DNA from: Calditrichia bacterium
GTDB lineage: Bacteria; Calditrichota; Calditrichia; Calditrichales; Calditrichaceae
Assembly: GCA_026983775.1 (NCBI GenBank)
Contig: JALSTK010000062.1
Coordinates: forward strand, 1-64,000
Direction of reading: 5' to 3'
Length of the DNA stretch: 64,000 bases
This document shows, in pieces, positions 1 through 60,236 of the stretch. How positions within the stretch are numbered: position 1 is the first letter of the stretch; every line of letters starts with the position of its first letter. Position numbers and translations under genes: made by a program. The notes under the pieces were generated by a model. That model ran no database searches. It saw only the letters and a list, made by a program, of their open reading frames with translations, and was not told the origin of the DNA.

Positions 1-999
1 GGCTGTATCTCCGCTTAAACTAAAGTCCGTACCGCGCGGCATGCCACCGTCTATGTCGCCTTCCCAGTGCAAACTATCTACGATGGTATCATTTTTCGTA
101 TCAATCGCATACCAGGAACCTTCACTATAGCCTTTGCCGTCATTGCGGCTGCCGACCCACAGATAACCGGTCTTGGGATTCCAGTTGCCGGTTTCTACGG
201 CCAGGCCCGGAAAAAGGGAATCAACTCTGGACAGATAGTCGCCGTCAATTCCGTTATCGCTATGAAAACGAATCAATCCGTAACTACCGCCAAAATTGCA
301 GAAATAGATATCGTTACCGTCCGGAGATACGTTAATATTTCTGGAGTAACCGGATAACTGTTCAACAGGAACCACATCATCAATAAAATCCAGATCCGAA
401 TCAAATGCTTTGATCGGGCCTTTACTAGCTACAACCGCATTAACGAACATATCACCGTCCGCGTCAAAGTCACAGGCCACAATGGATTCCCCATCCCAGG
501 GGTCTTCCGTATCGGGTCTTGGATAGGGTAATAGTTTGCCCATCCCTTCTCCTGTTTCATGATTAATCAGGTAATAAACGCACCAGGAACCGGCCATGAT
601 GTCACCGTCCGGGTTCCTGCGCAGACCGCGGTTACTGTTCCATAGGGTATCTGTAACGCCATCGACCGTGACCGACTTAATGGGTGAAAAAGAAAGCGGC
701 GTGCCGTCCGGCTTAAAAACATAAATGGCACGGCATTTGTGATAGGCGGCGGCGATCACCGTATCGGCACCTGTTGCCGTTGTGTCATGATGTTCGGGAA
801 CCAGCATGGAATCTGATGCATAATATGATGTATACCAGATGTTGCCGGCACCGTCGACGGCCAGGCCCTGGCCATATGTTTGCGGCTGAAGGCTGGTATC
901 AGCAGGAAAATTGGTAACAAACTGATACGATTCTGTCTGAGCAAAGGCAAAACTCGCCATTACCAGAAGCGCGATTATAAATGTAAATACTTTGGTCAT
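1..999 (-). CDS. Secreted beta-propeller-like protein, C-terminus outside the window
   Basis: The frame is open for 333 codons from the ATG at 999 to the window edge, so the 3' part is missing. The N-terminus (MTKVFTFIIALLVMASFAFAQ) is a clear signal peptide. The mature part has repeating short blocks such as GLAVDGAGNIWYT, NPDGDIMAGSW, DFDADGDMFVNA and VSPDGNDIYF, which resemble NHL/SMP-30-type beta-propeller blades. A good ribosome site (AGGGAGGT, about 1005-1012) precedes the start. Similar proteins in this window end in a FlgD-like sorting module, so one is expected in the missing part. That is inference. The gene follows the lipoprotein gene at 1286-2545 on the same strand after a 286-bp gap. 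The ligand is unknown. Confidence 0.8.
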   Translation of the reverse strand, partial: MTKVFTFIIALLVMASFAFAQTESYQFVTNFPADTSLQPQTYGQGLAVDGAGNIWYTSYYASDSMLVPEHHDTTATGADTVIAAAYHKCRAIYVFKPDGTPLSFSPIKSVTVDGVTDTLWNSNRGLRRNPDGDIMAGSWCVYYLINHETGEGMGKLLPYPRPDTEDPWDGESIVACDFDADGDMFVNAVVASKGPIKAFDSDLDFIDDVVPVEQLSGYSRNINVSPDGNDIYFCNFGGSYGLIRFHSDNGIDGDYLSRVDSLFPGLAVETGNWNPKTGYLWVGSRNDGKGYSEGSWYAIDTKNDTIVDSLHWEGDIDGGMPRGTDFSLSGDTA

Positions 1000-1185
1000 A
1001 AAAACCTCCCTTAAATGTTTTGTGATTGGGTTAGTATATTTTCTTAACAAACGTCAAATCGCTATGAAGATAAACATATTATTTCAATGTTTCAAGAAAA
1101 TATTGCCTTTCTTTTCGTTTTTCCGATGACTGTTCTTTCCTCTTCTTAATCTTCCGAAAGCAATACATTCTATTCCTGCCTTCTT

Positions 1186-1285: not shown

Positions 1286-2545
1286 TCATTGCGTCGCCCC
1301 TTTTTTAAGAGTGTTGACCCTTAAAATAACCGCCGGAGAGGTGATATTTCCGGTCGCATCTCTTATTTCGGTTCTACTTATAAAAAGATTGGTACCGTTC
1401 GCCATACCCCATGTCAGAGAATTGTTTTTACGTTCGGGTGAGAATAAAACCGGATACATATCTTCAAAGGAAGCACCTCCCGGAGCAATGGCGATTACAG
1501 CCGGACTATTCGGTGCCGAGGGATCATCCTGACAGGAAATATAGAGATAGCCGTCCTGACTGAAGCTCATACCCGCCACCCGGTCTTCCAGAATGGTGGT
1601 CATGTCAAAAATCTGTGACAAATCAAAATATTCTTCTTCCGGAGCCAAACTATCGGCCGAAACGATATGTCGTCTATAAATTTTATGGGTATCATTGCGT
1701 TTTGTCGCCAAATAAATATCACCGTTATATATTTTTACAGCGGTTACCTGACCGGGAAAGTCGAAATTAGTCACGCTTTTATCATTTAAATTGATTTCCA
1801 CGATGACATCCGCTTTACCGGCACCCCATAAATTTTGATTGGGACCGAAATCAAAATCATATATTTTACTCTTTAAAGTATGCCGATCTATAATAACTTC
1901 CGGTTCACCGCCTTCCTCAGGATACCTGTAGATCGTTTTACGTGTTCCATGAAGGGCATATAGCTGGTTGGAGGGTCCGACCCTCATGGCGTCATATTGT
2001 TTTAGTGCCGGGCCGAATCCTTTTCTAATACCGGTCTTATAATTTAATACATAAACCGAATCGGCCAGATTACCATTGTCGAACATCGTGAAATAAATAT
2101 TTCCGGTATTGTCAGCAGCCAGCTTTTGTGGTACCTCGGATGGTTTAAACCCATACATACTTTCCACGGCAGCCATCAATTTATAGACCACAGGATCACT
2201 AAATTTATCGGAACCCTGAACGGCAATCTTAATCTTCACCGAATCGGAAACAACCGGCGGAGCCACTACGGTCAATTCGGTTGTAGTCGCCTCGGTAATC
2301 GTTCCCTGTTTTTTATCAAAATAGACCCAGTTCTGGGACGGATCCGCAATGAAATTTTTTCCGGTAATGGTCAGAATACCGATTCCCGCAAAAGCGCTAT
2401 CCGGGCTGATATCCGTGATTACCGGTTGTGGGCCGGAAACATAATTCGGATCAAACAGACTCGGTTCCGGTTTTACTTTGCAGGAATTAACTACAAAGAT
2501 TGTAGCCAACAGTAAAAAGCTTACAGAAAAAAGATATTTTTTCAT
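1286..2545 (-). CDS. IPT/TIG-domain lipoprotein with propeller-like C-terminal region
   Basis: The N-terminus carries a lipoprotein signal (lipobox around VVNSC, Cys22). Residues about 40-120 form an IPT/TIG Ig-like domain (ITDISPDSAFAGIGILTITG, then FDKKQGTITEATTTELTVVAP), a fold known from cell-surface proteins. The rest, with blocks such as KLAADNTGNIYFT, FGPNQNLWGAG and GMSFSQDGYLYISC, looks like a six-bladed propeller. It is probably an outer-membrane or surface lipoprotein. It is the last gene of the TBDR-exported protein-PorV module at 2586-8869, 40 bp after the PorV gene, so it is likely co-transcribed. An SD (AAGGGGA) precedes the ATG. The ligand is not identifiable. Confidence 0.82.
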   Translation of the reverse strand: MKKYLFSVSFLLLATIFVVNSCKVKPEPSLFDPNYVSGPQPVITDISPDSAFAGIGILTITGKNFIADPSQNWVYFDKKQGTITEATTTELTVVAPPVVSDSVKIKIAVQGSDKFSDPVVYKLMAAVESMYGFKPSEVPQKLAADNTGNIYFTMFDNGNLADSVYVLNYKTGIRKGFGPALKQYDAMRVGPSNQLYALHGTRKTIYRYPEEGGEPEVIIDRHTLKSKIYDFDFGPNQNLWGAGKADVIVEINLNDKSVTNFDFPGQVTAVKIYNGDIYLATKRNDTHKIYRRHIVSADSLAPEEEYFDLSQIFDMTTILEDRVAGMSFSQDGYLYISCQDDPSAPNSPAVIAIAPGGASFEDMYPVLFSPERKNNSLTWGMANGTNLFISRTEIRDATGNITSPAVILRVNTLKKGATQ

Positions 2546-2585: not shown

Positions 2586-3578
2586 TTACATAGCAAATCG
2601 CAAAGCAAAGCGTTGAACATTGTTGAACACTCCAAACGGGATATAGGCATAATCGAAGTGCAGACCGAATTTGTGCACACCAAAACCAAAGGTAAAATTT
2701 TTCTCATCGGTGTTAGACATATATCCCATTCTTAAATCCAGCAAACTTAATAAACGATATTCCAAACCTATTTTAATGTACTCCGGGTGAGAACGCGGAT
2801 GAACCGCATCCATGGTAACGAGTAAATAATCCGTCTTGTATTTTTTAGGAACAAAATCCATAACATTTGCCGATACCCCAATGTTAAATGTCAAGGGAAG
2901 CTGAAAACCTTCTTCAGCATATTTTATTTCCTCGGAAAAATTTCTCACCGACATGCCGAAGACAATACTTTTCCAGCCGGTTTTATAGTGGGTACCAATA
3001 TCAAAAGCTAAACCGGATGCTTTCATATTTTTAATTTCGAATTGATTGCTTTCCTTCACATACGAGGTTATGGCAGGGCCCAGATATTGTTGCGCCCATT
3101 TTACCTGTCCCCCCACAGAAAACTTATTGGTTAACTCACGCGCATATCCCAGGCTAAACAGAAAGGCGAAGGGTTTAATAATACCCGTCTCTATATAGCC
3201 TTGTTTATTATAGGCGACTTGTGTTCCCTCCACGTCCCCATAATCAACATACTGAAGACTTATTCCCAAAACACCGTATTCTCCCTGCGAGGGCCTGAAG
3301 GACGCGCTTAACCCGTTATGAACAATCCCGGCGATCCATCGATTCATATAAAGAGAGACTTCAATGCTTTTTCCCGATTCGCTAAGCATAGCCGGATTTG
3401 CCCATAAAGCCCCGGAGAAATTAGCCACCGTTGTCATGGCACCGGCCAATGCGCTGGCCCTGGCGTCCGGATTAACACTTAAAAACTGAAACCCGGTTTG
3501 GGCCAATTTTTGTTGCCCGAAAAGACTACCAACCAGTACCGAAACGATGATGAAAAAAATTCTGACTCTGTTTAACAT
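2586..3578 (-). CDS. PorV/PorQ-family outer-membrane protein (module 2)
   Basis: A signal peptide is followed by the family signature near the mature N-terminus: KLAQTGFQFL, PDARASALAGAMT and ALWANPAML, matching the G-x-x-A-x-A-(M/L)-G-G-A ... W-N-P-A-x-L pattern of PorV/PorQ/UPF0164 FadL-like barrels. The length (330 aa) is typical. The end (QRFALRFAM) is a beta-strand with terminal aromatic/hydrophobic pattern. In type IX secretion PorV shuttles C-terminal-domain substrates at the outer membrane; a similar role here is inferred. I start at the ATG 3578 rather than the TTG 3581, because AAAGG lies upstream at proper spacing. It is 11 nt after the gene at 3590-5746, whose product it probably handles. 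Confidence 0.85.
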   Translation of the reverse strand: MLNRVRIFFIIVSVLVGSLFGQQKLAQTGFQFLSVNPDARASALAGAMTTVANFSGALWANPAMLSESGKSIEVSLYMNRWIAGIVHNGLSASFRPSQGEYGVLGISLQYVDYGDVEGTQVAYNKQGYIETGIIKPFAFLFSLGYARELTNKFSVGGQVKWAQQYLGPAITSYVKESNQFEIKNMKASGLAFDIGTHYKTGWKSIVFGMSVRNFSEEIKYAEEGFQLPLTFNIGVSANVMDFVPKKYKTDYLLVTMDAVHPRSHPEYIKIGLEYRLLSLLDLRMGYMSNTDEKNFTFGFGVHKFGLHFDYAYIPFGVFNNVQRFALRFAM

Positions 3579-3589
3579 CAATTTACCTT

Positions 3590-5746
3590 TTATCGGATTA
3601 TGATAAACTTTTTATTAATTGACTGCCCTTTTTTAAAAACAATTTCCCCCGTTTTAGAATCGAGGATGTTCTTGGTTACTTCTATGTGGGCAATATATAA
3701 ACCGCTGACAATCACCTGTCGGTAGCTGGTAACCGAATTCCATGCTTCGTCGCCGCTACCATCGGTATGATGGATTGTTTTTATCAAATCACCCCGCTCC
3801 GTAAATATTTTAATATCACATTGTGCGGGAATATTATAAAACATAATCTTGTCAAACTCTTTTGGAAACTGTACTTCCCTGGCTTTGATATAAAAGGGGT
3901 TTGGTACAATACGGATAGTTTTCAGGTCTTGCCCCGGCGCACGTCGAAGATAGGCGGGTTCCGTTGTGCGGGTATAATAACTGCTGCTCATCAGCGGACC
4001 ATGGGGATTAGCCTGAGTATTATTGTTGGATCCGTCATTGAAGGCCACAATATAATAATAATAGGAGAAACCACGAACCGCTTTTTCATCATCATAACTA
4101 TGAACAATTCCCGGATGATTCGTACCAAACCCACAGGCAAATATTTCCTGGGAAACCGTATCAGGTTTTCCTACGGCTCGGAATATACGGTACCCCCCGA
4201 AATCACCATCGGTTTCCGATTCGCTGGCATTCCATTTAAGGCTGATTCTATCACCGCCGGAAATAACCTCGAATAAGGAAGGGGGCTTCGGAGGCTGCGG
4301 AATATGAAAACCGAGATCATAATTTCTTTTAGCCCTGCTGAAGGTAAGCAGAATAGAATCTTTTCCAGTGTAAACCCATTGATCTTTATAGGTATCTTTA
4401 TCACTGGTTTTGGATCCATCCGGTAATATAAAGGGGCCTTTATCCGACGAATTTTTGTAAGCGGCTTCCCAGCGTTTACCAATTTTACTGCACATGGTTT
4501 TACTTAAACCGCTAACCCCTTCTGCTTCCACAATGGTAATACTTTCTCCATGTTTCAAATCGAAGGGGCCATAGGCAACCCAGAGATTGGTCCCACCGCC
4601 ATCGTTATGCACCTTATAAGCGATCTTATAGTCCGCCATATATTTTTCATCAAATCGTTCATTACCACCCAGGCCTTTGTACGGCACACCACTCAAAATG
4701 GTATTATACAGCAAGGCCATATTTTGCTCTTGACCATAAGACATATCACTGAAAGAAGGATACGTATCCCCGGCGTGCCATCCGATAACAACGGGTTGAT
4801 TCGGATCATCCGTACTATCCGTCGGGCTTTTATCCACATGTAAGATGGCCACTCCCGCATGCTGAGGCGCTCGTAATTTACCCGTTCTCGTATAGTCCGG
4901 TGCGCCGATATTATCAAAGGTATTCCCCTCGCCCTGGCCGGCCCATTCAAATCCGCAACGCAGCCAGTCTACAATGGGATTATCCAGAGTAATGCTTTCA
5001 TTGGCATGTTGAGCATACTCTTCACCACGTTTAGTAACCCAACTATATTTACCATAAGTCTGAGCTCCGCCGATTACAAAAGCGCCGTCCCAGCAGACGC
5101 TGTAGCGGGTTCCCCAGCTGATTCTCAGGCCTTTAAGCTCTCCGTTCAGCTCAATATCATCGTCATAATCCGTATTGCCGGTATTTGTATAGGTAAATAT
5201 TTTGATAAAATAATTATCATGATATTGCTGGCTAAAGGCATAAACGGTTCGCTTAAGAGTGAGGCCCATGGACGTATTTACCACATTGGTAACAATACGA
5301 TCGGGTATTTGGTCCGGAACAATTTCATCAATATCATCCGAATAAGAAGAAGTAAGATTATAACCGTCCACAAAAACATTGGGTGGATCATACTTGGCTG
5401 TTTCTTTTAGCTCAACGGGAAAGAGAGACTCCCCCACAAAACCGGCAGTTACATGAATCGCATAATGATCCCAATGATGATGGGTTTCATCGGTAAAATC
5501 CTGTACACCCAGCCAGTATCTTTTGATCACCGCGTTATCCTGGCGGGGATATTCCGCAGGCCAACGCAACCCTTCGTAATAACTGTTGTTCCAGGCTCGC
5601 TCCGAACCATAAGCAGAAAAATGGCTCTGTAGAGAACCGATTCGTATATAACGCTTATCCGTTGCCTGTACTTGTGGAAATACCGACTTAACGGGCAATA
5701 ATATACAAATCATGAATAATACGAAAATCGAAGCAATATTTTTCAT
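3590..5746 (-). CDS. Exported protein with FnIII-like domain and class I C-terminal module (module 2)
   Basis: 718 aa. A signal peptide (residues 1-25) is followed by a large all-beta region of unknown fold, a fibronectin III-like domain around 500-600 (GDRISLKWNASESETDGDF ... YYYYIVAFND) and a C-terminal module of about 100 residues starting at RIVPNPFYIK and ending KFIIIR. The C-terminal module resembles FlgD/T9SS sorting domains but lacks the usual NYPNPFNP motif, having VPNPF instead. It is a clear homologue of the 705-aa protein at 9950, sharing blocks such as DGLQWPA/EGLRWPA and DIDEI. It sits between its TBDR (5759-8869) and PorV gene with gaps of 11-12 nt. Ligand or enzyme function is unknown; a surface partner of the receptor is the best guess. 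Confidence 0.82.
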   Translation of the reverse strand: MKNIASIFVLFMICILLPVKSVFPQVQATDKRYIRIGSLQSHFSAYGSERAWNNSYYEGLRWPAEYPRQDNAVIKRYWLGVQDFTDETHHHWDHYAIHVTAGFVGESLFPVELKETAKYDPPNVFVDGYNLTSSYSDDIDEIVPDQIPDRIVTNVVNTSMGLTLKRTVYAFSQQYHDNYFIKIFTYTNTGNTDYDDDIELNGELKGLRISWGTRYSVCWDGAFVIGGAQTYGKYSWVTKRGEEYAQHANESITLDNPIVDWLRCGFEWAGQGEGNTFDNIGAPDYTRTGKLRAPQHAGVAILHVDKSPTDSTDDPNQPVVIGWHAGDTYPSFSDMSYGQEQNMALLYNTILSGVPYKGLGGNERFDEKYMADYKIAYKVHNDGGGTNLWVAYGPFDLKHGESITIVEAEGVSGLSKTMCSKIGKRWEAAYKNSSDKGPFILPDGSKTSDKDTYKDQWVYTGKDSILLTFSRAKRNYDLGFHIPQPPKPPSLFEVISGGDRISLKWNASESETDGDFGGYRIFRAVGKPDTVSQEIFACGFGTNHPGIVHSYDDEKAVRGFSYYYYIVAFNDGSNNNTQANPHGPLMSSSYYTRTTEPAYLRRAPGQDLKTIRIVPNPFYIKAREVQFPKEFDKIMFYNIPAQCDIKIFTERGDLIKTIHHTDGSGDEAWNSVTSYRQVIVSGLYIAHIEVTKNILDSKTGEIVFKKGQSINKKFIIIR

Positions 5747-5758
5747 CCATTATCCTCG

Positions 5759-8700
5759 TTAATCAAATCCCGGTAAAGCCAAATTTATCTTTAAGCCGAC
5801 CATCACATTGCGGGGATTAAGAAAGGTGAAGGCCTTAATATTCGGCATATCGATATAAGATTTGCTTTCTTTCCTTTTTTTATTTCTGGCCGCAATCCCG
5901 GGATCATTATCCGGATTCGGCTCTAAAGGGTCATAGGCAACGCCAACAGGACGATAGTCGCCGATTTTATCATTCCCATGTTCCACACCCTCTTCCCATG
6001 AAAAATTTAGTGAACGAAGGTAATCCTCACGATCGTAACGGTCCGAGAAACCGGCCCAACTCATATATTTTACATTAAAAGCATTGGTTACATCCAGAAA
6101 AAACTGAACATCATAGTTCAAACCAAAGCTTTTAAGTTGAAAGGTCTTACTCAACCTAAAATCAACATTATGATAATCACGCCATTGAGTATTGTATAAA
6201 ACGCCGGGTTTATTATACGGATTATAGGTATAATAGCTTCCGGAGCGCCAATATGCCAGGATACTTAAGTTCCAATTATTTATTACGCCGAGGCCGTTCC
6301 ACTGAGGGCCAAAATCTACAGGAGTTCTGAAATTAAGATTCATCCGGGCATACGGTTGCGGTCGCGGTTTGGATTGATAGGGATTTAAGCGCAAATATTC
6401 GCGCTGCTGTGTGGGATCCTCGTAATATTGGCCCAGTCCGAAATAACCGGAAGTATGTACATCATATGTATAGTTAATAAAACCGGAAACCCATCTGCCG
6501 CTGCGTTTACGGAGGGTTATTTCCAACCCCCTGATATCTTCGTAATTTCTGTTTTCCATTCTGTAATAACTAACGGAACCTTTGATGTTTTGGTAATGAA
6601 CCCAACCGGGCTGATCGTTAACATCTTTATAGTAGGCGGCAACCTTAAAAAGAAAAGTATTGAATAAATTTTGTTCGAAGCCTAATTCGTAGGCAACTGT
6701 TTTTTCAAGCTTCATATCGGGATTGCCGATATAGGTCACCATCCCATTGGATTCTCTTTGCAATCTAAAGCGGTAAGAAGAGACCGGCTCCGTATAAAAA
6801 TGCCCGTAATTAAAATACAATTTGGAATTTTCCGTAATCGGATGTGAAACACCTAAGCGGGGACTGACCACTAATTGTGCCTTCGACTTTTCGCCGGGGA
6901 CCTCTTTTTCGATTAAATCTCCGTATCCCGCACTCAGATATTTATCATAATCACTCAATTTAGATTTACGGGCATTGGCATTGGAATAATCAATACGTGC
7001 TCCAACATTTGCTATAAACCCTTCGAATTCAATTTTATCCTGGGCATACAGTCCTACCCGGTAAGGATGCACATTATAAATCATGCTCCTTGTCCATGTA
7101 CTCATGGAAGGACTATAGGTAGAAGAGTTTATATCATAATTATTATAGATAATACGGACACCTGTTTTAATTTGGTTCCTGGTCGTGATCTGACTGCTTA
7201 CATCCAGATTAAAGGTTACGGTAGAATTCTTACTCTTATCGCGTCCCAGATTCATCCATCCGCCCATACTCATTCCATTCACGCCGGCAACTCCATGGCC
7301 CCAATAACCAAATGGGGCTTCGTCCACGAAATAACCGGGAACAGGCTGGTATTTACGCGTCGTATCTCGGGTAGCCATTTGGAAAGTATGGTATTTACTT
7401 TTCTTATATTGCAGGCCGGCTTCGAGAAAAGTATTCGGCGAGAGTGTATGCGTAAGTTTGACCCCTAACATACTTCGAAATATGGTTCCGGGACTGTAAT
7501 AACCGGGCATATAAAGTACACTGCTTCCGCTACTGCTATTCAGTAAATTTGCAATTTCCGACTGGGAGACCAGTAACCGACCGGTTGGTGTAGTTGTCCA
7601 ACTGTACGGACTTACGGAATACACTTCTCCATACAGACCATTTGCCACTATTTTGGTAGAGGATGACGGGTTAATCGAATATTTCAGTTGGGTTTGATTT
7701 TCCGTATAGCTTTTTCTGGACAAAGGAAAAATGAACATGTCTTTATTTTTATAATACGTAAGATAAAAACGTGATTTGTATTTTTTCAACGATGGTATAA
7801 AGGCAGAAATAGGATCAGGACCGCCCAGGCTGGCATCAATCACATAATCCGGTTCGGTGATATCACCCTGTCGGCGGTGTTGCCATTCATATAACCGTTT
7901 GGCTCCTTCGGGAGTCAGATCATTATTAGGATTATCATCCTGCATGGTTGCTTCCGAGACCGCATTCCACCCTTCGAATTTTGGATACTGTCTTTGCATA
8001 TAATCGTCCCAGGCACCGTTTGCCGTTCCGGTCCACATCACATCCGGATCCAGATAAGGCCTGTTGAAATAAGAATATTTATCATAAATAGACGGGCCAA
8101 AATTTTTCCTTGCGCTGCCCAGATACTTGATGTCTCGTATCTGCCCGTTAAAACTAATCGTATAATGCTTTACATTGCCGTCTTTGGTAATCAGGTTCAC
8201 CAGCCCGGATCGTAAATCACCATATTCAGCATTAAAACCGCCGGTTTGCACCTGTATTTCCTTCAGGTTGGTTATATTTTTGGAAGTATAGGGTATATTG
8301 GACCTTTCATCATTGGCAGAAAACCCGTTAATTAAATAGAGGGTCTGACGAGCGCTGCCGCCGCGAATGATGGGGCCGTCACGTCCGGATTCGATACCCG
8401 CCTGAAGAGCGAGAACCTGATTAATATTCGTAACAGGAAGGGCATCCGCCATTTCTGCGCTAATATTTGTAGTGCTATTGGAAATATCTTTTACAACGAC
8501 CGGGCGCTTTGCCTCTACCAAGATTGTTTCAAGCCCCATTACTTCCGGTTTCATAGTAAAGTTGACCTTCGTTGTCAGATCAATATTAACAACCGTATTT
8601 TTGGCTACCACGGCGGTATAACCGATATAGGTTGCTTTCAATTGATAGGTGCCGGGCGGGACATTTAGAATCGTATAATAACCGTCTCCGTCCGTAGCCG

Positions 8701-8869
8701 CCCCTAACATCATACCTTCTATCACTACATTCACACCGGGCAATGCTTCACCGGTTTGCGCATCGGTTATACGTCCCGCGATTTTACCGGTTGTCCCGGC
8801 CGAAACTTCGCTTATCACTAAAAAAGCAACCATAAAAATGTAACGGACACTGAGAAGTTTTTTTCTCAT
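5759..8869 (-). CDS. TonB-dependent receptor with carboxypeptidase-regulatory-like domain (module 2)
   Basis: 1036 aa. The signal peptide (1-24) is followed directly by a CarboxypepD_reg-like/transthyretin-like domain (about 26-110; GKIAGRITDAQTGEALPG ... YYTILNVPPGTYQLKA), a linker with EAKRPVVVKD, a plug domain (about 130-240; QAGIESGRDGPIIRGGSA, GGFNAEYGDLRSG) and a long barrel ending in FLNPRNVMVGLKINLAL. This is the SusC-like arrangement of active outer-membrane importers. The ATG at 8869 is preferred over the TTG at 8881 because it begins a normal signal peptide, although neither has a strong SD. It is closely related to the receptor at 13096 and heads module 2. The substrate is unknown. 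Confidence 0.9.
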   Translation of the reverse strand: MRKKLLSVRYIFMVAFLVISEVSAGTTGKIAGRITDAQTGEALPGVNVVIEGMMLGAATDGDGYYTILNVPPGTYQLKATYIGYTAVVAKNTVVNIDLTTKVNFTMKPEVMGLETILVEAKRPVVVKDISNSTTNISAEMADALPVTNINQVLALQAGIESGRDGPIIRGGSARQTLYLINGFSANDERSNIPYTSKNITNLKEIQVQTGGFNAEYGDLRSGLVNLITKDGNVKHYTISFNGQIRDIKYLGSARKNFGPSIYDKYSYFNRPYLDPDVMWTGTANGAWDDYMQRQYPKFEGWNAVSEATMQDDNPNNDLTPEGAKRLYEWQHRRQGDITEPDYVIDASLGGPDPISAFIPSLKKYKSRFYLTYYKNKDMFIFPLSRKSYTENQTQLKYSINPSSSTKIVANGLYGEVYSVSPYSWTTTPTGRLLVSQSEIANLLNSSSGSSVLYMPGYYSPGTIFRSMLGVKLTHTLSPNTFLEAGLQYKKSKYHTFQMATRDTTRKYQPVPGYFVDEAPFGYWGHGVAGVNGMSMGGWMNLGRDKSKNSTVTFNLDVSSQITTRNQIKTGVRIIYNNYDINSSTYSPSMSTWTRSMIYNVHPYRVGLYAQDKIEFEGFIANVGARIDYSNANARKSKLSDYDKYLSAGYGDLIEKEVPGEKSKAQLVVSPRLGVSHPITENSKLYFNYGHFYTEPVSSYRFRLQRESNGMVTYIGNPDMKLEKTVAYELGFEQNLFNTFLFKVAAYYKDVNDQPGWVHYQNIKGSVSYYRMENRNYEDIRGLEITLRKRSGRWVSGFINYTYDVHTSGYFGLGQYYEDPTQQREYLRLNPYQSKPRPQPYARMNLNFRTPVDFGPQWNGLGVINNWNLSILAYWRSGSYYTYNPYNKPGVLYNTQWRDYHNVDFRLSKTFQLKSFGLNYDVQFFLDVTNAFNVKYMSWAGFSDRYDREDYLRSLNFSWEEGVEHGNDKIGDYRPVGVAYDPLEPNPDNDPGIAARNKKRKESKSYIDMPNIKAFTFLNPRNVMVGLKINLALPGFD

Positions 8870-8903
8870 TTTAAATTCCAATAAAAAATATTTTTAATTT
8901 TTT

Positions 8904-9929
8904 TTAAAACGAAAACTGAACTGAAATTCTATGCACACTATCAAACACACCAAAGGGTGTATACGCATAGTCTATACCAAAATTGAGACCCATCAGTTCT
9001 TTATTCAATCCGGCACCGATATTAATTCCCTCTTCATCGGTAGGCGTCGTATATCCAAGGCGTAAGGCAACCGTTCTCATAAATTCATATTCCAGACCAA
9101 ATTCAAGCTGTTCATTATAATCACGGGGATGGACATAATCAAAAGACAGAAACAGAGAATGATCGGATGATTCGCCGGGGAAAAAATCCATCATGTTCAT
9201 GGCCATACCCATTCGAAAGGTAAGCGGTAACTGGAAGGACTCGCGAATATATTTTATTTCTTGTGAAAAATTACGAACATTCATACCCAGACTCAGACTT
9301 TTATAGCCCGTCTTATATAAGACACCGAAATCATACGCCAATACGCCAAGGTCAAACTCTTTCGCTTCCGGAGTCTCACCGGCGTCAAAACTAATGATAC
9401 CGCCGGTTAGATTTTGTTTAACATATTTTACCTGCCCGCCTACAGAAAACTTATCCGTTAGGGCCTTGGCATATCCAAGACCGAATGTATAGGCGGTAGG
9501 TTGAAAAATACCCGTATCAATAAAGCCCTGAGAATTATCGGCACGAATAGTACCTAAAAAATCTCCATAATCTATGGATAAAAAACTAATCCCGAATACT
9601 CCGTACATTCCTCCGGCCGGTTTGTAGGCCATAGAGCCATAGAGATAATTAATATCAGCGATCCATTTTACCCTGCCCAAGGAAGCCTGGAAGGTCGGCG
9701 CCATGCGGGCCATACCCGCAGGATTATAAAAGAGCGAAGCCGATGTCCCCTCCATAGCTGTCAGGGCACTGCTTAAAGCACTGGAACGCGCATCCGGAGC
9801 AACTACGAGGAATTTCATTCCGGTTTGGGCTAATTTCCTGTTCCCGGCCAGCCCCGGCTGGACCGTCAGTCCAACCATAAAAAATAAAAATCCTAATATT
9901 ATGATGTTTTTTCTCATGGTCTTTTCCAT
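8904..9929 (-). CDS. PorV/PorQ-family outer-membrane protein (module 1)
   Basis: 341 aa. A signal peptide is followed by the conserved KLAQTGMKFL, PDARSSALSSALT and LFYNPAGMARM segments of the PorV/PorQ family, then alternating amphipathic strands ending in HRISVQFSF, a typical barrel terminus. It is a paralogue of the 2586 gene; both share FSVGGQVK and NFSxEIKY segments. It lies 20 nt after its cognate exported protein gene (9950-12067) and 34 nt before the TBDR of module 2. The function at the outer membrane is inferred from the family. An alternative start is the ATG at 9917 (MRKN...). Confidence 0.85.
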   Translation of the reverse strand: MEKTMRKNIIILGFLFFMVGLTVQPGLAGNRKLAQTGMKFLVVAPDARSSALSSALTAMEGTSASLFYNPAGMARMAPTFQASLGRVKWIADINYLYGSMAYKPAGGMYGVFGISFLSIDYGDFLGTIRADNSQGFIDTGIFQPTAYTFGLGYAKALTDKFSVGGQVKYVKQNLTGGIISFDAGETPEAKEFDLGVLAYDFGVLYKTGYKSLSLGMNVRNFSQEIKYIRESFQLPLTFRMGMAMNMMDFFPGESSDHSLFLSFDYVHPRDYNEQLEFGLEYEFMRTVALRLGYTTPTDEEGINIGAGLNKELMGLNFGIDYAYTPFGVFDSVHRISVQFSF

Positions 9930-9949
9930 CTTTATATGATTCTTAAATT

Positions 9950-12067
9950 TTAACGAATGATTACAAACTTCAGGATTTTTGTATCGCCCTTATTGAATAA
10001 TTTCTTTCCGTTCGATTGATCTATAATATCTTGGGTTACTTCAAAATGTGCTATATAAACCCCGCTGACAACTACCTGATTCGACGAGGTGGTCGCCTTC
10101 CAGTAATCATCCCCGCTGCCGTCGGTATGCTCAATCGTCTTAATCAATTCGCCGCTTTCTGTGTATATGCGGATACGACATTGACCGGGAATATTCAGAA
10201 AGGCCAGCTTATCCGGTTCTCCGGAGAACCTTAATCGATTGGTGGACGAAGAGATGATGTAAGGATTGGGCACGATCCGAATCTTATCCAGCGCAGAGCC
10301 CTGAGGACGTTTGAGAAAAGCGGCATCATAGGTTTGAGTATAATAGCGGCTGCTTTGCAGCCCATTGCTGCCAACGGTAACAATATAATAATAATAGCCC
10401 ACACCGCGTACCGGCGAAAGATCATCATAGCTTCTGGCCGTCGGGCCGGCTTCATAAATTAATTGCGGAGGTTTAAAAGGGTTATTATATTCACCGGCAC
10501 TGCGGTATATTTTAAAACCGGCAATATCATCGGATTCGTCATACACTTCCCATTTTAAGCTGATTCTGTCACCTCCGCCGCTTACTTCAAATATTTTTAC
10601 CGGTTTTGGCGGACGCGGTATATCATAATCGGCATTGTAATTAGCGATGGCATTGCGGAAGGTCTTAAACAGCGAATCTTTTCCCGTCAACACGTATTTG
10701 TTTTTGGTATACGCGTCGATCAGTCCCTTTTTGTATTGTTCACCGTATTCAATACATTTTTCCGTACTTAGACCGTTGGCTCCCTCGGCCAGTATCAAAT
10801 GAATCGATTCTCCCGGTCCAAGAGTATAGGGACCGTACCCATTACCAATGGAGAATCCACCCGGTTTTCCGGCCATGGGAGGGCTAAGGTCCAGATTCGG
10901 CCCTGTTTTTTGGGCGGCAAAATCACCGCTCGGTTCCACTGCCCAGGCATGACGCGGAGTCATATGACCATAGGCCATCCAAGCGTATTCATTTTGCATC
11001 TTTTTAACATTATACGGATCGTTATTTGAGGTTTCCGGCAAATCGGAACCGTACCATCCGGTAGTGGATGGTTCGGACGGATCGTCCACTTTTTCCGTAG
11101 GACTTTTATCCGCATAGATGGTTAATATACCCACAAATTGCGGAGCTCCCAGCCTCCCGACCGTGTCATATTCGGTTGTATAAGGTTTGTGTACACTCCA
11201 GATCGGGCCGCCGATATTATCATAGCGTTTATCAACCCTGTCCGGAAAATAACCGTGCCAGGCGAACTGGGCCCGAAAATTTTCATCCGGGGGGTCGCCA
11301 TAAGTTACCGGGTTATTGGGGCCGTCGCCGCGGGCATCAATCATGGTATTCATTCCCCAACCCGTACCATTGCCAATGACATAGCGGGTTTGGAAACAGG
11401 ATGCATAGCGATATTGAAAGAAGATGTAAAAACCGGTCAGTGTTTGATTAGGCAACTCGATATCCGCATCATCATCAATATTACCCGTATTGGTAAAGGT
11501 ATAATCATAAATCATGTAATTATCATTCCCGGGTATGCTGAACTGCATAATTTTGCGGGTCATGGTTACCCCAAGCTGCGAATTGGAAACATTCACTATC
11601 ATCCGATCAGCAGGAATGGTGGGATCGATTTCGTCGATATCCACATGCTTGTTTTCGGACAGCAGGCCATCTACAAATATACGGGGGGCATCAAAGCGAC
11701 TGACCATTTTAAACTCAACGGGATAAAATTCGCCTTCGCCGGTAACCCTGGGACCGATATGTACTACTTTATAAGGATAGAGATCTCCACGCTCATCCGT
11801 AAAATTGGTGGCGCCAATCCACAGAGCTTTGGCTGCCTGGCTATCCTGGTAGGGTAAAATGGCCGGCCATTGCAAACCGTCCTGCTGATTGGCCGAAGAA
11901 GAACGCCCCTCCTCCACTTCACAGCCGACTTCTGAGAACCAGTTATGCAATGAACCTACATCCATCCATTGATATCTGAACTGGGCCTGTCCTTTAAACG
12001 GCCAACTTAATATGATCAGGACGAGCAACAAAATAATAGCTTCTGTTCCTGTTTTGTCTCTTTTCAT
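9950..12067 (-). CDS. Exported protein with FnIII-like domain and class I C-terminal module (module 1)
   Basis: 705 aa, homologous along its length to the 718-aa protein of module 2. A signal peptide is followed by a large beta-rich region with aromatic- and Asp-rich loops, a fibronectin III-like domain around 490-580 (GGDRISLKWEVYDESDDIAG, YYYYIVTVGS) and a C-terminal module running from KIRIVPNPYI through GQCRIRIYTESGELIKTIEH to the tail KFVIIR. An SD (GAGGA) lies upstream of the ATG. It is placed between a lipoprotein gene and its PorV gene. No catalytic motif is recognised. Most likely a surface-exposed protein exported by a type IX-like route, but this is inference. Confidence 0.8.
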   Translation of the reverse strand: MKRDKTGTEAIILLLVLIILSWPFKGQAQFRYQWMDVGSLHNWFSEVGCEVEEGRSSSANQQDGLQWPAILPYQDSQAAKALWIGATNFTDERGDLYPYKVVHIGPRVTGEGEFYPVEFKMVSRFDAPRIFVDGLLSENKHVDIDEIDPTIPADRMIVNVSNSQLGVTMTRKIMQFSIPGNDNYMIYDYTFTNTGNIDDDADIELPNQTLTGFYIFFQYRYASCFQTRYVIGNGTGWGMNTMIDARGDGPNNPVTYGDPPDENFRAQFAWHGYFPDRVDKRYDNIGGPIWSVHKPYTTEYDTVGRLGAPQFVGILTIYADKSPTEKVDDPSEPSTTGWYGSDLPETSNNDPYNVKKMQNEYAWMAYGHMTPRHAWAVEPSGDFAAQKTGPNLDLSPPMAGKPGGFSIGNGYGPYTLGPGESIHLILAEGANGLSTEKCIEYGEQYKKGLIDAYTKNKYVLTGKDSLFKTFRNAIANYNADYDIPRPPKPVKIFEVSGGGDRISLKWEVYDESDDIAGFKIYRSAGEYNNPFKPPQLIYEAGPTARSYDDLSPVRGVGYYYYIVTVGSNGLQSSRYYTQTYDAAFLKRPQGSALDKIRIVPNPYIISSSTNRLRFSGEPDKLAFLNIPGQCRIRIYTESGELIKTIEHTDGSGDDYWKATTSSNQVVVSGVYIAHFEVTQDIIDQSNGKKLFNKGDTKILKFVIIR

Positions 12068-12099
12068 TATTATCCTCGAGCTAATGATTTAAATGTTCC

Positions 12100-13077
12100 T
12101 CATTCATAGATTTCAATATTGAATTTTAGTTGTCCTTCCGGAAGCTGAGCCACATTGTTTAAGTCATAAACAACATTGGCCTTTGCTGTGGCCGGGACAG
12201 TAGCTGAAAACAAGGTTACCGTATAGGGTGCTTCAGCCCCAGGTGGATAGGGAGGAATAAGATTCACCCCAACCTCGAGCCCCAAAAGATTAGCCGGTAA
12301 TTGTGTGGTGACCGTATCGGGGATGATAAAATCTTCACCGGGAAAGGGGAAAGCCTCCCCGGTCGAATCCCCATATTTCGAACTTTTGTCGGCCGCTGCC
12401 GGCTTGGTGAATTTACCGGTAGAAAAAACCGTACCGTTATAGTTTACCCAGCCTTCATAATTCCAGTTGGCCGGTAAATCGGGTAAATTCAGTCCCTGGA
12501 TAACCGCCCCTGTGGTATCTTTATTCACGAACCAAATACCTCGGGTAGGATCGGTATTATTGCTATCTGTGGGTGTCGCTAATATATAGGTACCTGCAGC
12601 GGCGGAAAAGTCCGTATTTAACAAAAAGGCATCTCCTACGGAGAGGGTTCCGTCGTTGGCATTGACCGTTGCCGCTAAAATCTGATAACCGCTGGGCGCA
12701 AAAATCGTATCTACAACCGAACTGTCTTGTGTAATTTGCCGGGTATTAAAACGCATTCCCGGTACATCATCATTTTCTATGGTAATGATACAACCCTTGG
12801 CCAGTTGCAGGTATCCCAGGTTAACATTGAAAGCGGATTTAGACATGGTTCCGTTGTCATCGACGGTAAAAATCCCAACACTTTTCTTAACACTACTTTT
12901 GCCTTCATCATAGATAAGCCATGCCTCATACCAGAATCCGGGGCCTAAATTATGGAGACCCTGCACATTAATTTCAACTTGCGTAATACGCTGTTCGGGA
13001 CTTAAAATTTTATGTTCCTTACAGCTAAACAAAAGTGATAAAATAAGCAGAATAAAAATAAAATTTAGTTTTTTCAT
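12100..13077 (-). CDS. Module 1 lipoprotein with two anti-sigma-C-terminal-like domains
   Basis: 325 aa. Lipoprotein signal with lipobox LLFSC near residue 19. The body contains two related beta-domains: one around FWYEAWLIYDEGKSSV ... GIFTVDDNGTM, the other around WNYEGWVNYNGTVFSTGKFT followed by FPGEDFI. The Y-E-x-W-(L/V) ... S-x-G-x-F pattern resembles small domains sometimes annotated as anti-sigma-factor-like in secreted proteins, but I am not certain of the family. It is inserted between the TBDR (13096-16296, gap 18 nt) and the exported 705-aa protein (gap 32 nt), so it is probably part of the same complex on the periplasmic or outer face. An SD (GGGGA) precedes the ATG. Confidence 0.72.
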   Translation of the reverse strand: MKKLNFIFILLILSLLFSCKEHKILSPEQRITQVEINVQGLHNLGPGFWYEAWLIYDEGKSSVKKSVGIFTVDDNGTMSKSAFNVNLGYLQLAKGCIITIENDDVPGMRFNTRQITQDSSVVDTIFAPSGYQILAATVNANDGTLSVGDAFLLNTDFSAAAGTYILATPTDSNNTDPTRGIWFVNKDTTGAVIQGLNLPDLPANWNYEGWVNYNGTVFSTGKFTKPAAADKSSKYGDSTGEAFPFPGEDFIIPDTVTTQLPANLLGLEVGVNLIPPYPPGAEAPYTVTLFSATVPATAKANVVYDLNNVAQLPEGQLKFNIEIYE

Positions 13078-13095
13078 CAGAGCTTTTTCCCCTTT

Positions 13096-16000
13096 TTATA
13101 GATCAAAAGAAATTCTGATTCCCCAAAAAATATTACGGGGATCCAAAAATGTAAAATACGTTTGATTAGGCATATCGATATAAGATTTATCTTTCAGGAT
13201 CTTATTAACCGTGCTTTTACTCTCTGGTGTCCAGGTACCGCTTTGGGAATGATAACGATAATAACCCGTGCCATGAACGCCTTCTGCCGCACTGGCAAAA
13301 TAATACAGATCATTATCATTGGGATTACTCACCGACTGATAAGAATCCCTGGCAATGATCGGAACAAAGGGTACACCCGGCTTACGATAATCGCCGGGTC
13401 GATCGTGACCCGGAATATTTGTGTAGCCGAATTGATCAATACCCTCTGTACTGGATGGCAAGTGTAACGAAGTCATATACGAACGACGATCATTATAATC
13501 TATAAAACCGTAATTGGTCATGTGTTTAAAATTAAAAGCATTATACAGATCTACAAAAAATTCGATTTTTGCACTCTTGCCTAATTGAAAATTTTTACTC
13601 AGACGGAAGTCGACATTCCAGTAATCCGGCCATTGTACATTGGCAAAAAGTCCGGGGATGGAACTTCCGCCGGCCCAGGTTTCATATCTTCCGGTTTTCC
13701 AACTTGCCAGCAGGTTAATCCGTAAATTCCCCAACGGATAAAACCTTGAAAAATGAGGGCCAAAATCCTCGGGGGAGAAGAAATCCAGATTGGCGCGCGC
13801 ATAGGGTCGCGGTTTGGGCTTATTCTGATAATAATAGGTTGAGGTTTTTTCATAATCCCGCTGCTGGGCAGGATTTTCATAATAGATGCCGTAACCAAAA
13901 TAACCATAAGTAGAAACCATATACGTATAATTTACGAATCCCCGGAACCACCTACCGCGGTTTTTCCTAAGTGTGATTTCAAAGCCGCGTATATCCTCGT
14001 AAGAATTGGGCTCTGCTCGTTGGTAAGAAACAGAACCGTCAAAATTTTCATATCTTACTAATTTGGGTTGTTCCGAAATGTCTTTATAATAACCGGCCAC
14101 ACGCAACAGGTACTGATCGAACAGATTATGTTCATATCCCAATTCATAGGCAATGGTCTTGGGAAGAGGATTATTGGGCATGGCAATACGATTAACCTGA
14201 TTGCTAAATCCGGATTTACCGAGCAGATATAAATCTTCCGGTATAGGTAACTGACGAAAATGGCCGTAATTAAAATACAGCTTACTATTTTCAGAAATCG
14301 GGAAAGAGATCGCCAGTCGCGGACTCAATGTAAAAATATGTTTGGTAGGTTTCTTTTGGAGTAAGGTATCTATACCGTTCGAATACACGGAGCTGAAGGC
14401 CTTGTTGTATGGGTCATACACATACCATTTACCGCCGGCATGAGAATAATCCAGTCGTAAGCCGGCCTGAGCAACCATGCCTTTAAACTCCAATTTGTCC
14501 TGGACATAAATAGCTCCCCGGACCGGATTTCGATTCCATTTAACCTGTCGATTCCAGCGCGGCAGGAATTCATCAAAACGGGCATAGTTCACATTACTCC
14601 ATGAATAATTAAATTCAGCGCCCATTTTAAAGTTATTAAAACGATTGAACTGATCGGTAAAATCATACTTCAAATTAAGATATGACACCTTACTACTGTC
14701 TCTGGCGTCGCTCATACCGGCCCCCATACGCATACCGTCGATGCCGGCGACAGAAGCCGGTTCAAATCCAAAAGGTGCTTCATCTACATAATAATTATTT
14801 CCGAATTTATAAATTCTTGAAGTATCACGTCGAGCCGCCGGATTGGTGTTATAGCGCGACTCGAAATAGTGAATACTTCCTTCATGAAATCCTTTTTCAC
14901 TAAAAGCATGCGTAAATTTCATACCGATGCTGGTATAATCGACCCGGCTGGGACCCCAATAATCCGTTCCGAACATGCGGGCATCAATATATTTAGGGCC
15001 ATTGCTTAAGGCACTGGCAATACGCCAGGTGGAATTAAACATTCCCGGATAGCCGTTATTATTGCGATCCGTCCCTGTCGTGCGGCCCAGCATAGTAGAA
15101 AACATCACCTTAACTCTGTTTTTTATTCCCGGGAGTTTCATGTCCGAAGTCAGTTTAAGCTGCCAGTTATAGTTACGGTGCGCGTCTTCGGAAAGGGGGA
15201 TCAGATAAGCGTTTTGATCTTGTGTATAAGAGGTAAAAAATCGTAGATTCCCCAGATCTTTAGAAATAAAAGGTACCGGACCGCCAAAAGAGGCATCGAT
15301 ACTATAATCCGGTTTTTGAATATCGAGCTGACGACGATGCTGCCATAAAAAAACCTGCTGGGCAGCCTGCGGGGTTAAATCGTCATTTGGATCATCATTC
15401 TGCAATGTTTCCCGCGAAATCTGATTCCATCCTTTAAACTCCGGATACTGGTCTTGTATATGTTTATCCCACGCACCGTTTTTGGTACCAACCCAGCAAA
15501 CAGCATCATCCACAAAAGGGCGGATCCAATACGCATTCGGACTGTTAGGAGAAATACCAAAATGTTTGGGAGCCGGGGCACGGTATCTTCCGAGAAAAGC
15601 AAAGTTGTACTTGTTTTTGCTACCCTCTTTTGTTACCACGTTTACAATACCGGACCGGATATTGCCAAACTCGGCACTAAAACCACCGGCCTGAATCTGA
15701 ATCTCATCTACCGAGGTCAGGCTGACCGTGGTATAAGGCTGATTGGTTCGTTCATCGCGCATAGTTAAACCGTCCACGACAAAAGCCACCTGATCCAACC
15801 CGCCGCCACGAATGCTCATTCCCTCCACACCTGCTTGTAGGGCAACCACATTAGGCACCGAAATCACCGGAAGATTTTCCACATCTTTTATATTTAAATT
15901 AGCCCGGCTGGCGGCTACATCCCGTTCTACAATCGGCCGTTTGGCAATGACCGTTATTTCCTGCCCCATTTGCAGCGTTTCTTCTTTAAGCTTAAAATTA

Positions 16001-16296
16001 ATCGTGGTGGTCTGATCGATATTTACGCGAACATCCGTTACAGACAGCGGAGTATATCCGACAAAGGTTGCCGTTAATTTATATGATCCCGGAGGAATAT
16101 TAAGGATCACATAATAACCGTCCGGGTCCGTGGCCGCCCCCAGATAAGTGCCTTCGATAAAAACATTTACACCGGCCAGCGGTTCTTTGGTAGTAGCATC
16201 GGTTATTCTCCCGGCAATTTTTCCGGTTGTACCTGCAAAGAGGTTGATAAGCGGTAAAAAAATCAACCACACAAGCAGGCGCTTTTCCATTCTCAT
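13096..16296 (-). CDS. TonB-dependent receptor with carboxypeptidase-regulatory-like domain (module 1)
   Basis: 1066 aa. Signal peptide 1-22, CarboxypepD_reg-like domain about 23-105 (GKIAGRITDATTKEPLAG ... GYYVILNIPPGSYKLTA), linker IAKRPIVERD, plug (SIRGGGLDQVAFVVDG, GGFSAEFGNIRSG) and a beta-barrel ending FLDPRNIFWGIRISFDL. It is a close paralogue of the module 2 receptor; both contain a WQHRRQ segment and the block PDY-x-IDAS-x-GGP. The start at 16296 has AAGGAGAG at good spacing; a second ATG is at 16290. It is the first gene of a probable operon running to about position 1286 or beyond, divergent from the 16642 receptor. The substrate is unknown. Confidence 0.9.
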   Translation of the reverse strand: MRMEKRLLVWLIFLPLINLFAGTTGKIAGRITDATTKEPLAGVNVFIEGTYLGAATDPDGYYVILNIPPGSYKLTATFVGYTPLSVTDVRVNIDQTTTINFKLKEETLQMGQEITVIAKRPIVERDVAASRANLNIKDVENLPVISVPNVVALQAGVEGMSIRGGGLDQVAFVVDGLTMRDERTNQPYTTVSLTSVDEIQIQAGGFSAEFGNIRSGIVNVVTKEGSKNKYNFAFLGRYRAPAPKHFGISPNSPNAYWIRPFVDDAVCWVGTKNGAWDKHIQDQYPEFKGWNQISRETLQNDDPNDDLTPQAAQQVFLWQHRRQLDIQKPDYSIDASFGGPVPFISKDLGNLRFFTSYTQDQNAYLIPLSEDAHRNYNWQLKLTSDMKLPGIKNRVKVMFSTMLGRTTGTDRNNNGYPGMFNSTWRIASALSNGPKYIDARMFGTDYWGPSRVDYTSIGMKFTHAFSEKGFHEGSIHYFESRYNTNPAARRDTSRIYKFGNNYYVDEAPFGFEPASVAGIDGMRMGAGMSDARDSSKVSYLNLKYDFTDQFNRFNNFKMGAEFNYSWSNVNYARFDEFLPRWNRQVKWNRNPVRGAIYVQDKLEFKGMVAQAGLRLDYSHAGGKWYVYDPYNKAFSSVYSNGIDTLLQKKPTKHIFTLSPRLAISFPISENSKLYFNYGHFRQLPIPEDLYLLGKSGFSNQVNRIAMPNNPLPKTIAYELGYEHNLFDQYLLRVAGYYKDISEQPKLVRYENFDGSVSYQRAEPNSYEDIRGFEITLRKNRGRWFRGFVNYTYMVSTYGYFGYGIYYENPAQQRDYEKTSTYYYQNKPKPRPYARANLDFFSPEDFGPHFSRFYPLGNLRINLLASWKTGRYETWAGGSSIPGLFANVQWPDYWNVDFRLSKNFQLGKSAKIEFFVDLYNAFNFKHMTNYGFIDYNDRRSYMTSLHLPSSTEGIDQFGYTNIPGHDRPGDYRKPGVPFVPIIARDSYQSVSNPNDNDLYYFASAAEGVHGTGYYRYHSQSGTWTPESKSTVNKILKDKSYIDMPNQTYFTFLDPRNIFWGIRISFDL

Positions 16297-16641
16297 TGAT
16301 ACTCTCCTTAAAAAAATTTAGAAGAAAAAATGTATAGTACAACCCGAGTTAGTGCGCAAAGTTAACAAACTTTAATTAAAAAGAGGCTCTTCACTCAATT
16401 AAAGAGCCAATTACATTACGAATTATAAAAACTTATATGAAACATTTCAACAAAAAAATGAAAAAAAATGAAAAAATCAACATAAAATCAAATAAGTAAG
16501 TCCGCTTCCCGAACAAACTTGTATTTACAATAAATATTTTTTATCTTGAATTAAAATTTACCCTAAGACTACTACTATGTTGAAACATGATGCAACCGGT
16601 CGATTTAATTTTATCCATTATACCACTTGCGGGAGGTCCGT
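16297..16641. promoter_or_regulatory. Divergent intergenic region between two TonB-receptor genes
   Basis: This 345-bp AT-rich stretch must hold promoters for both diverging modules. An inverted repeat GGCTCTT/AAGAGCC (16385-16408, 10-nt loop) lies about 90 nt upstream of the minus-strand start. It has no T-tract, so it is more likely a 5'-UTR structure or operator than a terminator. A-tracts around 16450-16485 suggest bent DNA. For the plus strand, TTGAAT (16546-16551) could be a -35 box, but the -10 is poor. The SD GGGAGG (16631-16636) fixes the plus-strand start at ATG 16642. Confidence 0.4.
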
Positions 16642-19455: not shown

Positions 19456-19479
19456 ATTAGCCTTTCAGGAGATCTTTTA

Positions 19480-21510: not shown

Positions 21511-21532
21511 CCATAACCAGAGGGCTATATAT

Positions 21533-26915: not shown

Positions 26916-26941
26916 TAAAGCTCCACCTTATATATCTATTT

Positions 26942-30340: not shown

Positions 30341-30369
30341 TTGTATTTATTCTCCTGATAATGAGATCA

Positions 30370-60216: not shown

Positions 60217-60236
60217 TGTAAGCTCCCTGTAAAAAT

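Follow-up and report, generated by a model that had tools for sequence, protein, structure and literature searches.

An old paired receptor-partner array from a Calditrichia bacterium, putatively encoding a SusD-free surface glycan-uptake system

Among the systems closest to the locus described here are the SusCD transporters and utilisomes of Bacteroidota, for which part of PMC7618045 serves as reference, and the type IX secretion system (T9SS) with its PorV protein (e.g., PMC8564354). The stretch of DNA under study, hereafter the window, comprises the first 64,000 nucleotides of contig JALSTK010000062.1 from a Calditrichia bacterium (GenBank assembly GCA_026983775.1, a genome of 4.03 Mb in 179 contigs), and contains near its start a block of eight genes with two modules, each consisting of a TonB-dependent receptor (R), an exported partner (E) and a PorV-family protein (V). 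Like SusCD loci, it combines in one locus a TonB receptor with a carboxypeptidase-like extension, a surface partner, accessory lipoproteins and linked secreted glycan enzymes; unlike them, it has a predicted supersandwich protein as partner, a PorV-family gene in the triad and two paralogous receptor-partner pairs. With respect to type IX secretion, the genome possesses SprA and PorU and the V proteins belong to the PorV/PorQ family, whereas the 20 PorV-family genes of this single genome, some of them in receptor triads, and the scores of both V proteins under the PorV equivalog cut-off depart from the reference.

The block is best understood, with a probability that we put at roughly 55%, as the operon of an old and widespread surface glycan-uptake system devoid of SusD, possibly dedicated to peptidoglycan fragments. 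Two R-E pairs from ancient clades recur, as their sequences show, side by side in several lineages, accompanied by their own or a shared V, a TIG lipoprotein (T) and a class-specific small lipoprotein (L1 or K). This reading combines the gene content, phylogeny and linkage observed with a predicted fold for E and with a contact, an export route and a substrate that are proposed here. The names alpha, beta and gamma refer to classes of R and E defined by tree clade, module 1 of the window being gamma and module 2 beta, while L and G numbers designate fetched loci and genomes, and C58 and C62 contigs of the source genome, the window being the start of C62. The components are the following:

R1, 13096 to 16296, minus strand: gamma-class TonB-dependent receptor made of CarboxypepD_reg, Plug and barrel (Pfam, gamma clade).
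L1, 12100 to 13077, minus strand: gamma-specific lipoprotein between R1 and E1, with an invariant Cys19 and no clear known fold.
E1, 9950 to 12067, minus strand: exported surface protein of the gamma class (E tree), homologous to E2.
V1, 8904 to 9929, minus strand: PorV/PorQ-family outer-membrane protein (NF033709, 191.2 bits; V tree).
R2, 5759 to 8881, minus strand: beta-class TonB-dependent receptor (Pfam, beta clade).
E2, 3590 to 5746, minus strand: exported surface protein of the beta class, with a predicted supersandwich (residues ~25-484), an Fn3-like part (~490-590) and a C-terminal tail domain.
V2, 2586 to 3581, minus strand: PorV/PorQ-family outer-membrane protein (NF033709, 179.8 bits; V tree).
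T2, 1286 to 2545, minus strand: lipoprotein with TIG domain (51.2 bits) and beta-propeller (profile matches), a shared component of the arrays.
X0, 1 to 1050, minus strand: secreted protein truncated by the contig start, a near copy of which opens contig C58.
Intergenic region, 16297 to 16626, no strand: common to the block and to the divergent triad R3-E3-V3.

The eight genes follow each other head to tail on the minus strand in the order R1-L1-E1-V1-R2-E2-V2-T2, with gaps of 8-40 bp, and probably form a single operon-like transcription unit. Both receptors contain CarboxypepD_reg and are identified as TonB-dependent by their Plug domain (PF07715; 41.7 and 27.1 bits, cut-off 23.9), and both score far below the SusC/RagA model TIGR04056 (66.1 and 54.6 bits, cut-off 368). 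V1 and V2 exceed the cut-off of 90 bits of the PorV/PorQ family NF033709 and stay, with 83.4 and 75.7 bits, below the 250 bits of the T9SS PorV equivalog NF033710. T2 is a TIG surface lipoprotein according to its PF01833 match (cut-off 20.9) and to Cys22, invariant in 30 aligned sequences, its beta-propeller being recognized by profile against solved structures; both signatures occur in T2 and not in L1, and BLAST finds no match between these two lipoproteins. No Pfam or NCBIfam family reaches its cut-off on E1 or E2. The SusD model PF07980, the single SusD model searched genome-wide, gives 0 matches, and no SusD-type Pfam match occurs on the eight proteins. The group as a whole does not lack SusD, since the related Melioribacter roseus is reported, in part of PMC3534657, to possess SusC, SusD and SusE.

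According to the original prediction, R, E and V of one module are each homologous to their counterparts in the other, in the same order and in tandem, and this is fully borne out: all eight open reading frames are present at the stated coordinates, and R1 and R2 share 45.9% identity over 1001 aligned positions, E1 and E2 41.0% over 671, and V1 and V2 46.1% over 330, i.e., 41-46% over nearly their full length. With the other triads in the window, R, E and V of the block share 24-36% identity, so that the pairing stands above the family background. It had further been proposed that the whole unit duplicated and that the two modules are each other's relatives, which the comparison with other genomes contradicts. 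The nearest relatives are found elsewhere, both for the partners (E1 with L035, 70%; E2 with L049, 72%) and for the receptors (R1 with L036, 66%; R2 with L050, 66%), and R1/E1 and R2/E2 belong to different old clades, which is the outcome that the original prediction had named as its refutation. In an E tree of 158 rows, E1 and E2 are located in opposite clades of 73 and 79 rows. A more careful E tree of 63 rows supports beta with 99/96, alpha+gamma with 100/97 and gamma with 100/100, and the corresponding R tree of 52 rows supports beta with 100/99, gamma with 100/99 and alpha+gamma with 98/96 without L137 (82/83 with it). Rows shorter than 480 (E), 700 (R) or 290 (V) amino acids, or sharing their last 250 residues, were omitted from the trees, and one member of the near-identical V pair of L094 was lost through the latter rule. 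In the approximately unbiased (AU) test, a gamma+beta grouping is rejected for R (p 0.0058) and weakly for E (p 0.037), and an alpha+beta clade excluding gamma is weakly rejected for E (p 0.026), the groups having been named after the first tree was seen, so that the p-values flatter. The dN/dS ratio between the modules dates nothing, the synonymous sites being saturated (pS 0.74-0.77), as they are between orthologues.

Some match to E2 occurs in 39 of 40 genomes (its own included), in many cases through the shared tail, and a match of at least 53% over at least about 260 residues in 16 of the 40, the best in another genome reaching 72%. The best 79 named loci are distributed among Calditrichota, KSB1, Neomarinimicrobiota (Fidelibacterota), Ignavibacteria/Melioribacteraceae, Delongbacteria and Bacteroidetes-titled records, titles that may include misassigned bins. 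Taken together, the separate clades, the nearest relatives in other genomes, the AU results and the saturated synonymous sites indicate that the R-E duplication is old and predates the spread across these lineages, whether this came about by descent, by transfer or by both. The adjacency, collinearity and pairwise homology of the modules would also suit a scenario in which this lineage recently duplicated the whole R-E-V unit in tandem on the spot and then exchanged its lipoproteins, but the level of identity, the saturation, the relatives elsewhere, the distinct R and E clades with the AU rejections of gamma+beta, and the different history of V render that explanation extremely improbable. 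What looks in a single genome like a tidy tandem duplication can prove to be a far older paired array.

R, E and V distances were compared over those 62 of the 117 full R-E modules that have a V of their own (41 alpha, 15 beta and 6 gamma). The distances correlate at 0.908 between R and E, at 0.637 between V and E and at 0.745 between V and R. Averaged within and between the beta and non-beta groups, they amount to 0.527/0.580 for R, 0.512/0.617 for E and 0.518/0.526 for V, and the V tree mixes Vs following E-alpha with Vs following E-beta; V1 belongs to a gamma clade (95/85) and V2 to a clade of Vs located after E-beta (99/98). Since V lacks the alpha/gamma-versus-beta split, no single duplication of the whole unit accounts for the block, and the coherent inherited unit is the R-E pair, V multiplying and moving independently. 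In L094, two Vs, one between K (ending at 5893) and R-beta (starting at 6917) and the other from 12139, are 95% identical, while the receptors are 40% and the partners 36% identical; this V pair probably results from a recent duplication or conversion. In L099 (1332-5771), tandem alpha-class E genes, close kin to each other, lie ahead of one V.

Altogether, 113 loci were retrieved through their similarity to E1 or E2 (one of the fetches keeping the best 80 of 99), duplicates being dropped (L069, L075, L077, L110, L117), near-identical relatives retained in the counts and L001-L028 unused. By strict labels, 53 of 114 rows, i.e., 52 of 113 distinct loci once L055 and L056 are merged, carry both alpha/gamma and beta R or E, a proportion that is not a frequency in nature; L036 is counted as paired through its R-beta remnant, and a loose count of 63, admitting tail-only matches, was discarded. 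The remaining loci are alpha/gamma only (18), beta only (37) or neither (6), many of the single ones being truncated by contig or fetch ends. Paired arrays occur in Calditrichia-class kin, KSB1, Fidelibacterota, Ignavibacteriota and Bacteroidetes-titled records.

The lipoproteins had been viewed as the exchangeable part of the unit, with an extra one at 12100 and an unrelated TIG lipoprotein at 1286 terminating module 2. The former is L1, as predicted. The latter does possess a TIG domain and lacks a BLAST match to L1, but is no insert of module 2, since T is found in 49 of 52 other paired arrays. The idea of exchange accordingly applies to the accessory lipoprotein, which differs by class, and not to the TIG lipoprotein, which is common to the arrays. 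A gene for the small lipoprotein K occurs in 36 of 46 alpha arrays, usually after E-alpha (L102 has another after E-beta), whereas L1 occurs in none of the 46 alpha arrays and in five of the six gamma arrays, the sixth (L122) ending before R; L1 is also encoded in the window and in two gamma-only loci, L034 and L035, and is missing from the long-branch gamma locus L040. Compared by profile, K and L1 align along the lipobox alone. The K family between E-alpha and V (e.g., L051, L057, L060, L086) comprises 54 stretches, duplicates included. A fold for L1 was sought and given up: its model (predicted local distance difference test, pLDDT, 75) has no Foldseek match at E 0.001, and the best VIA match (Z 6.8), to C2-like sandwiches, is uninterpretable.

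The position of the beta cassette bears on how the array arose. In gamma arrays the cassette R-E-V is located between V and T (L049, L050, L053, L054 and the window), elsewhere it comes after V-T-X or directly after V, and beta comes first in L072, L078, L084, L085 and L088. In L034 and L035, which are devoid of beta, T begins 9 and 5 bases past the end of V. Of the seven family rows, L034 branches deepest in the E tree, though not in the R tree. Moreover, the beta pair of L072 (Melioribacteraceae) groups with the Calditrichota beta rows in both R and E trees, and G005 holds both a gamma+beta and an alpha+beta array. These features favour a joining of the gamma and beta modules by recombination or transfer, the block then being an assembled array rather than the direct descendant of an ancestral alpha/beta tandem. 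On the other hand, alpha/gamma beside beta is common in several lineages, and in the E tree L035 and L036 nest inside the beta-bearing gamma rows, a position that points to loss more than to late gain. L036 follows the array of L050 as far as R-beta residue 255, after which it resumes roughly 20 residues before the end of V2, which reads as a clean loss of the beta cassette. On balance, we lean against assembly by joining, while regarding it as a serious possibility.

Enzymes of the GH94 and GH116 families consist of a supersandwich followed by an (alpha/alpha)6 barrel. The AlphaFold2 model of E2 (718 amino acids, 60 aligned rows, pLDDT 91.9) matches along residues ~25-484 (to ~530 in some alignments) the N-terminal part of TxGH116 (VIA Z 19.0, root-mean-square deviation 3.8, 288 aligned) as well as disaccharide and oligosaccharide phosphorylases (VIA Z 14.8-17.8), which we take to be of the GH94 kind. 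Past residue 484 the model contains strands and one four-residue helix, organized in an Fn3-like part and a strand-rich tail that replace the helical barrel, the catalytic (alpha/alpha)6 barrel being absent. The N-terminus of E is thus predicted to be a GH94/GH116 supersandwich without its catalytic barrel, and most likely, given this combination, E is a glycan-binding protein and not a glycan-cutting one. Homology to E1 and E2 extends across 465 profile columns in E3 of the neighbouring triad and through the tail in E4, so that E1 and E2 are members of a larger family of receptor partners.

The tails of E1 and E2 are homologous to those of the E proteins of other triads, the best sorting-type match, under cut-off, being CHU_C (E 0.025 on E1). 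The genome contains the machinery of type IX secretion (SprA, 880 bits summed over frame; PorU, 799 bits), together with 127 Por_Secre_tail and 27 Plug matches, both at E 0.001; at least four of its 20 PorV-family genes above cut-off are located in receptor triads of the window. T9SS-tailed propeller and Ig-like proteins nearby could suggest that R-E-V builds a surface structure for adhesion or sensing instead of importing nutrients, an idea that we deem improbable because the TonB plug, the carboxypeptidase-like domain and the linked hydrolases fit nutrient import.

Under the favoured reading of glycan uptake, the enzymes encoded next to the arrays point to a substrate. X0 of the window (1-650) is 96% identical over 650 bp to the opening of contig C58 (L148, 1-650); the two copies may represent a tandem repeat of X0 at which the assembly broke, and C58 presumably adjoins the block. 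After X0, C58 encodes a GHL10 protein, a PD40 protein, an Amidase_3, a NAGPA, a second GHL10, a C39-like protein, a YkuD protein and a third GHL10, incomplete because the contig stops there. Of the eight proteins, five bear a sorting tail. The amidase retains a GHGG...E...SIHSN pattern resembling what we take to be the zinc site of the Amidase_3 family. Among 74 proteins from 15 downstream regions (70 of 80 listed, ten module parts or edge genes being excluded, plus four genes of C58 located past the limit of 11 kb), Pfam recognizes Por_Secre_tail 27 times, GHL10 14 times and Amidase_3 six times; two of the four added genes are GHL10, and without all four the GHL10 count is 12 of 70. Among 100 control proteins, GHL10 and Amidase_3 both fall outside the 25 families listed. 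Searched with hidden Markov models (HMMs), GHL10 occurs in 10 of 11 regions after beta- or gamma-bearing arrays, one of which (C58) is included by its presumed adjacency, in 1 of 4 after alpha-only modules (L161, with the gene ~18 kb away) and in 0 of 14 controls; the amidase occurs in 6 of 11, 0 of 4 and 0 of 14, respectively. The GHL10 HMM was built from six array-adjacent proteins and is thus biased to that kind, other GHL10 genes existing elsewhere in the genomes; the controls are other stretches of related genomes, L173-L176 including surroundings of more distant E matches.

Cwp19, a GHL10 protein, is described as a peptidoglycan lytic transglycosylase that acts on cells more slowly than lysozyme does and shows no activity towards 11 other carbohydrates (parts of PMC6016235 and PMC5765458). 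The same domain occurs on the array-adjacent T9SS-tailed enzymes, which differ from Cwp19 by their Big_5 or fn3 domains and sorting tail. Peptidoglycan from cell-wall debris is, from this gene neighbourhood, the most specific candidate substrate, a tentative assignment to which we give slightly less than even odds, other polymers being possible. The same uptake machine might thus handle beta-glucans, starch-like or other polysaccharides, GHL10 and amidase acting on those or being functionally unlinked: the matched GH116 and phosphorylase folds deal with glucosides, one or two copies each of the GH92, GH94, GH2_N and CBM9 domains are present among the 74 downstream proteins, and growth of Caldithrix abyssi on starch, cellobiose, glucomannan and xyloglucan is reported in part of PMC5317091. 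Set against this, GHL10 and Amidase_3 are the commonest array-adjacent enzyme families and both have peptidoglycan-acting members (Amidase_3 by family name), and the C58 amidase keeps its zinc-site-like pattern, so that another polymer is plausible but somewhat disfavoured.

Several observations weigh against the favoured reading of glycan uptake by paired modules. As regards the fold, a putative mutarotase (3mwx) also matches E2 (VIA Z 13.3), supersandwich domains can be catalytic too, Foldseek by itself ranks Fn3-type receptors first and gives the phosphorylases a TM-score of just 0.22-0.26, so that the fold claim rests on VIA, and a shared fold by itself shows no function. As regards export, neither E1 nor E2 has a sorting domain recognized by Pfam or NCBIfam, and the case for E as a T9SS cargo depends on the homology of the tails. 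As regards the enzymes, GHL10 and amidase are absent from the 19.8 kb downstream of the alpha+beta array of G005 (L151) and from L175, the far side of the gamma-clade module L040; among the 52 paired arrays GHL10 occurs in 22 and the amidase in 6, many stretches ending early, and a Deinococcus GHL10 enzyme is presented as starch-using in the title of PMC9967864. As regards pairing, no E at least 50% identical to E2 occurs in the gamma-bearing G001, G009 and G012, fragmented genomes that are 93-97% complete, and the deletion of the beta cassette in L036 shows that pairing is not obligatory. Together with the gamma loci devoid of beta, these cases mean that the pairing of alpha/gamma with beta, though favoured, is dispensable.

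According to the glycan-uptake reading, surface GHL10 and amidase enzymes with T9SS tails would cut the polymer into fragments, with T and L1 (or K) acting as surface glycan-binding helpers. Type IX secretion would carry E across the outer membrane, V being a shuttle or a partner that helps to place it, and E would sit on R as a capture module or lid, in the place occupied by SusD in SusCD. R would then import the captured fragments with TonB energy, and the two receptors may handle two fragment classes of one polymer. The widest version of this scheme, a SusD-free peptidoglycan (necromass) utilisome across several phyla, combining paired ancient receptors, T9SS-delivered barrel-less caps derived from enzymes, a dedicated PorV-family shuttle and surface GHL10/amidase feeders, is rather unlikely to hold in full. 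The locus provides a concrete gene set and a testable partner swap, a T9SS-delivered supersandwich protein in SusD's place, offers a possible route for the uptake of large glycans without SusD in T9SS-bearing bacteria, and names a candidate substrate. Literature searches for PorV and TonB-dependent receptors, combined with Calditrichaeota or with T9SS, and for Marinimicrobia with TonB-dependent and type IX, found nothing, which is no proof of absence elsewhere; the available part of a paper on peptidoglycan, necromass and Marinimicrobia (PMC11129491) contains nothing on this system.

Beyond the block, the window contains additional R-E-V triads, or in one case perhaps an E-V pair, of this general kind at 16627-22525 (plus strand), 25878-33117 (minus strand) and 59191-63986 (minus strand). 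T2 ends in KKGATQ (1286-1310), without the GAPYYGR-like motif kept by most of its aligned homologues. A scan for promoters and terminators barely exceeds shuffled sequence (48 vs 38 and 21 vs 16, respectively); its best promoter-like match, at 16450-16422 on the minus strand, agrees with the consensus at 11 of 12 positions. Between this match and R1 lies a hairpin (16408-16385) that might exert leader control, and a second hairpin (1258-1276) is located directly past T2, all three being consensus matches only.

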